A DNA stretch of 64,000 nucleotides from Promicromonospora sp. AC04. Lineage in GTDB: Bacteria > Actinomycetota > Actinomycetes > Actinomycetales > Cellulomonadaceae. The notes below the pieces were generated by a model. The model did no database searches. It was not told where the DNA came from and was given only the letters and a program-made list of their open reading frames with translations. Position 1 is the stretch's first letter. Every line of letters starts with the position of its first letter. This document shows positions 18,560 through 20,549 of this stretch, in pieces. The translations under genes were made by a program, and so were the position numbers. The stretch lies in contig NZ_QBUG01000006.1 in the NCBI RefSeq assembly GCF_003058225.1, positions 248,001 through 312,000 of the forward strand, read 5' to 3'.

Positions 18560-19312
18560 CTACCGAAGGAGCGCCCGCAGGCCCTTGATGCGCGGCTCGT
18601 CGAGCCCGACGTACCGGAGGTAGGCGGCCGGGTCCAGGTCCACGAGCCACGCCAGGAGGGCCGCGCGGCGCTCGCCGACGCGCTCCTCCAGCTGCTGGGC
18701 CGTCCAGGTCTCGCCCCGGTGCTGGACCCAGGCGCCCCGCTCGACGTCGTAGGAGACGCCGCCGCCCCGGTGCGTGGTCCCGCGAAAGGCACGCTCGTAG
18801 TCGTCGGCGATCGCCTGGTGCTCGACACCGGTCAGGGACAGCAGCATCGCGGTGATCATTCCCGTGCGGTCCCGGCCGGCGGCACAGTGCACCAGCACGG
18901 GGCCGGGAGCGTCGGCGATCGCCCGGAAGACCCCGGCGAACAGGTGCGGGTACATCGCGGTGTTGGGCGCGTAGGAACGCGGATGGTCGAGCCAGGGCCC
19001 GCAGGTCTCCAGGAAGTGGGGGTCGCCCGGATCCTCGGTAGGGGTGTTGCGGGTGACGAGCTCGCGAGGGCGTGCGGCGTCGGGCATGAGGTCGCGGGCC
19101 TGCTTGATCTCGGCGGGGTTGCGCAGGTCGACGACGGCGGTGAGCCCGTCGTCGAGCGCCTCCGCCCAGCCGGTGGGAGTGATCGGCTCGGGCGCCCCGG
19201 AGCGCCAGACGCGCCCGGGCGCAGTGCTTTCGCCGTCGTCGAGCGGGAGACCACCGAGATCGCGGAGGTTGACGGCTCCGTCCCAGGTCTGGAGGTTCAC
19301 CACGTTGCTCAT
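18560..19312 (-). CDS. Tyrosine-protein phosphatase (DUF-type dual-specificity)
   Basis: 250 residues. The P-loop HCAAGRDRTGM matches the Cx5R(T) signature of the bacterial tyrosine/lipid phosphatase family, with the Cys nucleophile about residue 147. The N-terminal WDGAVNLRDLGG and WRSGAPEP are characteristic. Possible substrates are phosphotyrosine proteins or phosphoinositides. The ATG at 19312 lies 7 nt after -10 CACGAT (19320-19325), with -35 TTGACC (19343-19348) at 17 bp, so transcription is probably leaderless. Confidence 0.88.
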   Translation of the reverse strand: MSNVVNLQTWDGAVNLRDLGGLPLDDGESTAPGRVWRSGAPEPITPTGWAEALDDGLTAVVDLRNPAEIKQARDLMPDAARPRELVTRNTPTEDPGDPHFLETCGPWLDHPRSYAPNTAMYPHLFAGVFRAIADAPGPVLVHCAAGRDRTGMITAMLLSLTGVEHQAIADDYERAFRGTTHRGGGVSYDVERGAWVQHRGETWTAQQLEERVGERRAALLAWLVDLDPAAYLRYVGLDEPRIKGLRALLR

Positions 19313-19415: not shown

Positions 19416-20477
19416 TCAGGCCGCCGACGCGGCCGCGTCGAGGTCCGCCACCACGACCAGGTAGTTGTCGGGCGCACCGGCCGCCTCGACAGCGTCAGCC
19501 ACCTGCTGCGTGACGTCGTCCGGCTCGCCCGGATGGGTCAGGAGCCGGGCAAGGTGCTCGGGCTCGAGGACGGCGTGGACGCCGTCGGCAGTCAGGACGA
19601 GCCGGTCCCCCGGAAGCAGGTCGACCACGAACACGTCAGGCTCGGCCCACTCCGGCGCACCACCGAACGCCCGGTTGAGCAGCGCACGGTCAGGGTGCGA
19701 CCGGGCCTCGTCCTCGGTGAGCCGCCCCTCCTCGACCAGCGCCGCGGCCACCGTGTGGTCCCGGGTGAGGGGTTCGGCCCCGCCGTCCCGCACGAGCCAC
19801 GCCCGCGTGTCACCGATGTGCACGACCCGCCCCTGGTCGCCGTCGAGCAGGACGGCCGTCAGGGTCGTGCCGGCATGGTCGGCCCGCTCGGCCCGCACGC
19901 GGGCAGCCTCCGCAGCCTGTTCGACGGCGACCGCCAGCCCTGCGTCAGACACCCCTGCGCCGGACACGCCCTGGGCGAACGTGTGCAGCGCGATCGATGC
20001 AACCTGGTCGTCCCCGAAGCCGTCAGCGACGGCGATCAGCCCCGGCCGGACGAGACAGGCGTCGTTCATCGACGACCTCCCGCCGATGCCCATGCGCGCG
20101 GCGGCGCTCGCGGCCAGGGTGGTTCCGGTGCGTTCCATGGTGCTCTCCTTCGTACGGAGCCGGACGAGGAGCTCGGACACGATCGCGCGGCGTGAGGCCG
20201 TGTCGGCCTCGACCTGGCGCCAGTACGCCTGCACGGCGTCAGCCGCCATGCCCGACGGCGCCGACGCGACCTCGCGGATGCGCGCCAGAGGCATGCCGAT
20301 GAGGCGCAACTGTGCCACCAGGCGTGCCCGGTCGAGCTGGGCGGACACGTACCAGCGATACCCGGTGAACGGGTCCACCCGGTCGGGGCGAAGCAGCCCG
20401 AGATCGTCGTACAGGCGCAACGCCTTCGGCGTCAGGCCGGACGCTCGGGCGAACTCACCGATGCTCAGGTGCTCCAC
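19416..20477 (-). CDS. MerR-type DNA-binding domain fused to a PP2C-like Ser/Thr phosphatase
   Basis: 353 residues. Residues 1-75 are a MerR HTH (LSIGEFARASGLTPKALRLYDDLGLL, FTGYRWYV, AQLRLIGMPLARIREV). A helical linker follows (76-115), then a PP2C-like domain (about 116-353) with VADGFGDD, HIGDTRAWLVRDG, LTRDHTVAAALVEEG, GDRLVLTADGVH and APDNYLVVVAD; the metal-binding Asp positions of PP2C are retained. It may couple dephosphorylation or signal binding to transcription. GTG start set by AGGA at 7 nt. A MerR-type promoter with 19-bp spacer lies just upstream, implying autoregulation. Confidence 0.87.
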   Translation of the reverse strand: MEHLSIGEFARASGLTPKALRLYDDLGLLRPDRVDPFTGYRWYVSAQLDRARLVAQLRLIGMPLARIREVASAPSGMAADAVQAYWRQVEADTASRRAIVSELLVRLRTKESTMERTGTTLAASAAARMGIGGRSSMNDACLVRPGLIAVADGFGDDQVASIALHTFAQGVSGAGVSDAGLAVAVEQAAEAARVRAERADHAGTTLTAVLLDGDQGRVVHIGDTRAWLVRDGGAEPLTRDHTVAAALVEEGRLTEDEARSHPDRALLNRAFGGAPEWAEPDVFVVDLLPGDRLVLTADGVHAVLEPEHLARLLTHPGEPDDVTQQVADAVEAAGAPDNYLVVVADLDAAASAA

Positions 20478-20518
20478 GTGACCATCCTCGTCTCCGGCGA
20501 CTGTCGCCGGTGTGCAGG

Positions 20519-20549
20519 AGGTTGGCGCTTCCCCCTGGGGCAAGGTCAA
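20519..20549 (-). promoter_or_regulatory. MerR-type promoter/operator with 19-bp spacer
   Basis: On the minus strand -35 TTGACC (20544-20549) and -10 CAACCT (20519-20524) are 19 bp apart. A 17-bp dyad with one mismatch pair (20528-20544, CTT-C-CCCC/GGGG-C-AAG) fills the spacer. A long spacer with a central dyad is the hallmark of MerR-activated promoters. It drives the MerR-PP2C gene. Confidence 0.75.

Follow-up and report, generated by a model that had tools for sequence, protein, structure and literature searches.

The window analysed here is a stretch of 64,000 nucleotides from Promicromonospora sp. AC04. On its minus strand lies a GTG-started gene for a 353-aa protein (19416..20477) in which a MerR helix-turn-helix (HTH) and a PP2C phosphatase fold are joined in one chain, as a preliminary description of this DNA had it. 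The N-terminus matches the MerR winged HTH family PF13411 with 46.9 bits against a cut-off of 21.6, the MerR_1 domain covers residues 5-72 (20262..20465, minus strand) and the NCBIfam models for CueR and SoxR match it partially, a likeness to the classical MerR activators CueR, BmrR and SoxR. A long helix predicted in a single-chain model for residues 75-112 (20142..20255, minus strand) is expected to be the dimerisation helix; it is followed by a complete PP2C phosphatase, and the junction between the MerR and PP2C halves is predicted by the model to be disordered.

The fusion protein and its distribution

The C-terminal half is predicted to take the PP2C fold, with fold-search rows spanning residues 120-350; the matches listed in the fold search with the fusion protein were all occupied by this half, and the MerR half was absent among them. 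Conservation was followed across 61 fusion loci (the window, L016-L018, L021-L049 and L101-L128). Left out were PP2C-only and MerR-only matches (L002-L008, L019, L020, L050-L066), L010-L015 and the fusions L136-L141, and because the 61 loci are related, counts over them are not independent. The PP2C metal ligands, whose loss across homologues the preliminary description had named as the finding that would tell against it, persist in 60-61 of the 61 loci: R134, D139, D152, G153, D223 and D240 are kept in all 61, and D298 and D337 in 60. For the roles of the phosphate-binding Arg and of five Asp in PP2C enzymes we follow an excerpt of PMC3375153. From these residues and the predicted fold we infer that the phosphatase half is active on Ser/Thr proteins, as an enzyme of the MspP/PstP kind. 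The protein reaches 113.5 bits with the Stp1/IreP equivalog NF033484, below the required 230. In L138 the PP2C half holds a long Asp/Leu/Pro/Gly-rich repeat insert (DLPGDLPGD...), which is shorter in L139. In L018/L009 (Antribacter gilvus) the fusion frame stops early, at 294 residues and without the PP2C end, possibly as a decaying copy; L018 was left out of the PP2C tree described below.

A search for MerR-PP2C fusions, proposed in the preliminary description, shows that the architecture is not rare. With 7996 candidates scored and 2369 matching at E<=0.001, the best 120 of the 2369 were examined, and 117 of these 120 listed matches carry both the MerR and the PP2C Pfam domains. Where names are given for the listed matches, they are 'MerR family transcriptional regulator', 'protein phosphatase', PrpC and similar. 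MerR also stands among the linked domains in the legend to Figure 5 of a 2025 survey of bacterial PP2Cs (PMC12088040); going by the listed database matches and this legend, the architecture is known in catalogues. The fusion occurs in 3 of 13 genomes of the window's genus, in 4 of 150 genomes of its family (six matches, two of them PP2C only), in 3 of 35 of another family and, for a Nocardioides-like genus, in 31 of 118 at E<=1e-50. The class-level count is at least 36 in 394 genomes and includes that of the window; it combines 32 matches spanning both halves with four split matches joined in one frame. The fusions among the 61 loci cover nine genera; the Streptomyces-, Nocardioides- and Mycobacterium-like labels of genomes used here are inferred. 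As far as the searches show, the autoregulation and the internal start discussed below are undescribed for the MerR-PP2C family in the open-access literature. The matches listed from open-access PMC include no characterised MerR-PP2C protein and no account of its internal start, and the database fusions have the same architecture, with neither autoregulation nor two products described among the matches listed or in the excerpt of PMC12088040.

Promoter, operator and neighbouring genes

The gene has a MerR-type promoter of its own, as also claimed at the outset, at 20519..20549 (minus strand), with the -35 element TTGACC, a 19-bp spacer and the -10 element CAACCT; a 17-bp dyad (20528..20544, 7 of 8 pairs) is the presumed operator. 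Spacers of 19 bp are the hallmark of MerR activators, and the promoters controlled by CueR, BmrR and SoxR combine such a spacer with a central dyad. Upstream of the fusion, TTGAC at -35 in the same 19-bp geometry is present in 49 of the 61 loci (TTGACC in 47); the other 12 depart from it with TTGAG, TTTAC or another form, and ten of these 12 are Nocardioides-like. The 31-base promoter lies 57-118 bp ahead of the first aligned codon in 59 of the 61 loci and 161 bp ahead in two, and across the loci the spacer-centred dyad has between 3 and 8 of its 8 possible pairs. Among 33 distinct sequences compared first, every one opens its 31-mer with TT(G/T)AC and has A at 27 and T at 31, letters that are partly built in because the site taken at each locus was the best by similarity; pairing in this set is maximal at the expected dyad centre (0.53 of pairs). 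A sigma-70 scan, which has a spacer limit, returned no site.

A degenerate operator pattern, allowed at most one mismatch in 14 genomes, gave 14 sites in 11 genomes, with a maximum of two per genome and three genomes without any site, and the reversed control pattern gave zero matches in the same 14. Ten of the 14 sites are MerR-PP2C promoters. The remaining four precede the sister MerR genes L098 and L100 and two ORFs named by eye, L091 ('MFS-like') and L094 ('serine-hydrolase-like'); the sites before these two ORFs lie in two other genomes, where a wider regulon is possible. In the window's 6.8-Mb genome the single match is the fusion gene's own promoter, with no second operator at up to one mismatch.

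The synteny that the preliminary description had suggested examining did not yield a generally conserved neighbour; only close relatives share theirs. The window's genus and Antribacter (L009) show ordinary synteny, for example a beta-lactamase-fold gene upstream, and other neighbours too are common to close relatives and none is general. The idea of a conserved operon partner was rejected, as only the fusion gene itself and two clusters including ORFs antisense to it recur in more than 4 of 22 loci. A Y_phosphatase3 gene (18560..19312, minus strand, 250 aa), 103 bp downstream, is a possible partner and may share a transcript with the fusion gene. This pairing was looked for in the 61 loci and their duplicates, with flanks of mostly 1.5 kb, and occurs in five distinct loci (window, L016, L017, L022/L070 and L109). 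The ends of the two genes overlap in L022/L070, and the homologue that adjoins the MerR-PP2C gene in the Nocardioides-like genome of L070 is 46% identical. At eight loci (L129-L135, L142) a split version, with MerR beside a stand-alone PP2C, was found nowhere within 2-3 kb at E<=1e-3, and the window holds no tRNA genes and no Rfam families at the gathering threshold.

Taken together, the lack of a generally conserved neighbour and the results of the operator search suggest that the DNA-binding half serves mainly to regulate its own gene. We infer that the fusion gene is autoregulated, with the long form controlling mainly its own transcription, and by analogy with MerR activators its binding would activate rather than repress. 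The MerR half could instead serve mainly to carry the phosphatase to DNA or RNA polymerase, with autoregulation incidental or repressive. Such a role would agree with the near invariance of both the catalytic residues and the sampled residues of the DNA-binding domain, and with the single target found in the window's genome at up to one mismatch. We consider it highly improbable, since two or fewer operator matches per genome among the 14 searched would be poor for general anchoring, 19-bp spacers mark activators, and MspP persists without MerR in mycobacterium-like genomes.

A start site at the domain junction

The feature that the preliminary description missed lies inside the gene. A Shine-Dalgarno (SD) sequence, AAGGAG (20145..20150, minus strand), stands in the coding sequence six bases ahead of an in-frame ATG at the domain junction (Met114, 20136..20138, minus strand), and the window reads GAAGGAGAGCACC-ATG there. 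Initiation at this codon would give a free PP2C phosphatase of 240 aa (19416..20138, minus strand). Met114 is kept in 119 of 120 proteins, with Leu in the other, despite the linker being predicted as disordered. A start codon and an SD-like stretch are found at the junction in all 61 loci (ATG 54, GTG 6, TTG 1), and where the Met is lost the codon is still GTG or TTG. Duplex energies were calculated against the anti-SD sequence. Their mean at the junction is -7.1 kcal/mol and all 61 loci lie at -5 kcal/mol or below, a number inflated by taking the best start within nine codons; the single-column count is 50 of 61. Elsewhere in frame, 159 of 924 start codons get that low (27 of 159 for ATG alone), as do 4350 of 18705 when every codon is scored. 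A small change to the anti-SD piece and the window leaves 58 of the 61 junctions at this level. Among the fusions left out of the set, the junction starts of L136-L139 and of L141, which is the gene of L128, score -5.9 or better, and that of L140 (the gene of L143) scores -6.1.

Position and codon choice are more specific. When alignment columns are scanned for a start codon with an SD, 50 of 61 loci score at the junction, and columns more than 25 away reach a maximum of 10 with a mean of 0.3; 7-codon windows give 53 at the junction against 13 elsewhere, and 19-codon windows 53 against up to 21. The codon of Met62 is a start codon in 60 of the 61 loci and has an SD (-5) in only 10. None of 300 synonymous shuffles of the six upstream codons reaches the observed mean (-7.13 vs -5.96, sd 0.21). 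Of the 48 Arg codons found at -7 to -3, 36 are AGG or AGA, compared with 123 of 1960 across whole genes. Within individual genes the junction SD outranks those of all other in-frame starts in just 27 of 61, and the main-start SD is as strong or stronger in 49; the window is one of the 12 loci with a stronger internal SD (-9.3 internal vs -7.2 main). The conserved internal start probably releases the phosphatase alone, so that one gene would supply both a regulator and a free enzyme.

The same residues might be read as peptide. On that account only the 353-aa protein is made, its PP2C fold is, much as the preliminary description suggested, an inducer-binding domain that sets promoter distortion, and the junction is conserved for the motif K/E/R-D/E-x-x-M, merely resembling a ribosome site. 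Position -4 relative to the junction start is indeed Glu, Lys or Arg in 58 of the 61 loci, the strength of the main-start SD fits a single product, and classical MerR proteins bind their inducers at the C-terminal position: in CueR, BmrR and SoxR this part binds a metal, drug or redox signal, and in the fusion protein an enzyme domain takes its place. Against it, GTG and TTG at the junction preserve a start codon and not Met, the SD exceeds every synonymous shuffle with the rare AGG codons clustered at the junction, and a fixed peptide is hard to explain in a stretch predicted to be disordered. Four mycobacterium-like loci, moreover, keep SD, ATG and phosphatase despite partial loss of MerR. 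We regard a single-product sensor as unlikely.

A known gene shows the arrangement that we propose. According to excerpts of PMC6078987 and PMC2893106, TipA of Streptomyces lividans has a MerR N-terminus, is autoregulated and yields TipAL and TipAS as alternative in-frame translation products, the second product being the effector half. The window's genome encodes a TipA homologue with MerR and TipAS (L006, G000:C2:93027-93308; PF07739 at 99.8 bits), and its junction has the same design as that of the fusion gene, GAAGGAGGACATC-ATG at -12.2 kcal/mol. Three MerR fusions of beta-clamp type (L004, L064 and L065) have no SD-start site near the junction; L004 is assigned by Pfam PF02767 and the other two by resemblance, judged by eye. 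The effector of TipA is the drug-binding TipAS domain, whereas the fusion protein has no match to PF07739 and PP2C instead, so that it would work like TipA and yet not be a TipA; its two products are predicted.

The reading we favour, and hold to be reasonably likely, is that of a TipA-type MerR gene with autoregulation and two products, in which the effector half is an active PP2C Ser/Thr phosphatase and the output is the free phosphatase. The two-product claim is carried by the single-column scan, the codon evidence and the TipA control. As a dimer, the long 353-aa product would bind the 17-bp dyad within the elongated 19-bp spacer of the gene's promoter; if it acts as MerR activators do, it would untwist this promoter when its C-terminal half is in the right state. 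Ribosomes would also initiate at the internal AAGGAG...ATG, making the 240-aa phosphatase from the same mRNA, and the free enzyme would dephosphorylate Ser/Thr proteins. The likely output would then be the phosphatase itself, with the DNA-binding half tuning its dose, as in a self-dosing gene. More tentatively, and with doubt prevailing, a metal or a phosphoprotein in the PP2C site could be the signal that switches the long form and provides feedback on the phosphatase level. The preliminary description was right to place a PP2C domain in the effector position behind the gene's own promoter; with the internal start, what looked like a regulator that senses through a phosphatase becomes an autoregulated gene that very likely makes free phosphatase too.

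MspP, mycobacterium-like loci and a proposed wider dual-start layout

The closest solved phosphatase by sequence is MspP (MSMEG_1928), the soluble PPM enzyme of Mycobacterium smegmatis, whereas in the structural comparison PstP and tPphA come out level with it. PstP, an actinobacterial Ser/Thr phosphatase, shares the PP2C fold and metal residues and is not known to carry an HTH. An excerpt of PMC6554272 describes PstP as transmembrane and encoded at a different locus, and calls the function of MspP unknown, though the enzyme is active in vitro. MspP is stand-alone, without MerR. In the fusion L140, from a mycobacterium-like genome, the PP2C half matches MspP at E 6.7e-106, and the Met of MspP, whose crystal chain reads MASVLSAATATDQ from position 2, aligns with the internal start codon of L140. 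In a FastTree built from 104 PP2C domains, MspP falls together with the fused proteins into a single clade (support 0.939), which also takes in the phosphatases L003, L060, L062 and L135.

An MspP-like phosphatase is present at E<=1e-50 in 23 of 297 genomes of the mycobacterium-like genus, and since the upstream DNA aligns in all 23 loci, the reference included, these are the same genomic place. Five of the 23 are fused to MerR (L143, L147, L148, L162 and L165). Four (L149, L150, L151 and L153) keep pieces of MerR or linker DNA together with the junction (-5.8 each), other parts being absent, and the remaining 14 have no MerR match within 1.5 kb. The junction SDs of the five fusions range from -5.6 to -8.8, and a TTGACCTTG-type promoter lies 35-38 bp ahead of the aligned MerR start in each. 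Their operator scores are 18 to 21 of 31, with shuffle maxima of 19 or 20, so what speaks for these operators is that they start alike and occupy a common position: judged on score, just L143, L148 and L165 stand above chance, and all five begin TTGACCTTG at one place. The mycobacterium-like fusions are scattered inside the MspP clade, where L165 falls outside a group of the other 22 (support 0.712). This series, with MerR fused, partly lost or absent at one place and the phosphatase retained throughout, supports the two-product reading.

Repeated loss of the MerR half is the simplest reading of these loci, and MspP appears to have been derived in this way; gain rather than loss is conceivable for the 14 free phosphatases. 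MspP as a fusion-gene product in M. smegmatis itself was considered and rejected, because the closest locus, L145 (89% identical), is a free phosphatase with no MerR match within 1.5 kb, and only a shared origin is therefore claimed. The alignment of free MspP with the internal start would also suit a relic, with SD and ATG inherited from a captured free phosphatase gene and now unused. Conservation over nine genera in the 61 loci and the synonymous bias argue for present selection, and of the alternatives weighed here we give this one the least credence.

A second MerR family has a similar layout. The sister family of L098, L100 and L166-L195, from Streptomyces-like genomes, has nearly the same operator as MerR-PP2C, TTGAC in the promoter region in 30 of 31 loci, and GGGGAGGAG-CTCCGAG-ATG or a near form at the junction in 30 of 31, with TTG for ATG in three. 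Since 185 of 510 other in-frame starts in this family also reach -5, the threshold is less telling here than the fixed position. Its effector half matches no Pfam domain and is 'GyrI-like' by eye. These genes lead us to a broader proposal, which we believe and doubt in equal measure: actinobacterial MerR genes with one operator type would be 'dual-start' genes, in which an effector was captured at its own start codon with its own ribosome site, each making a long form that regulates itself as well as a free effector. In the PP2C branch this would amount to an autoregulated phosphatase, and MspP would be a member that lost the DNA-binding half.

Actinobacteria have an especially high number of kinase genes per phosphatase gene, according to an excerpt of PMC6554272, and MerR-PP2C would join one-component transcription control to Ser/Thr phosphorylation in this group. 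The results further propose an evolutionary origin for MspP, a crystallised phosphatase, and suggest that the two-product design of TipA is a recurring layout of MerR genes and not a curiosity of one drug-binding gene.

Two minor observations concern related loci. At G000:C13:127463-127873 (L004:811-1932), a MerR domain is joined to one that resembles the beta clamp of DNA polymerase III (PF02767); an ORF that is MFS-like by eye lies next to the gene, and L064 and L065, from the same genus, encode similar proteins. In the mycobacterium-like fusions L143, L147, L148 and L162 only 6-7 bases separate the end of the presumed -10 element from the MerR start codon, which hints that the long form is translated from a leaderless mRNA.
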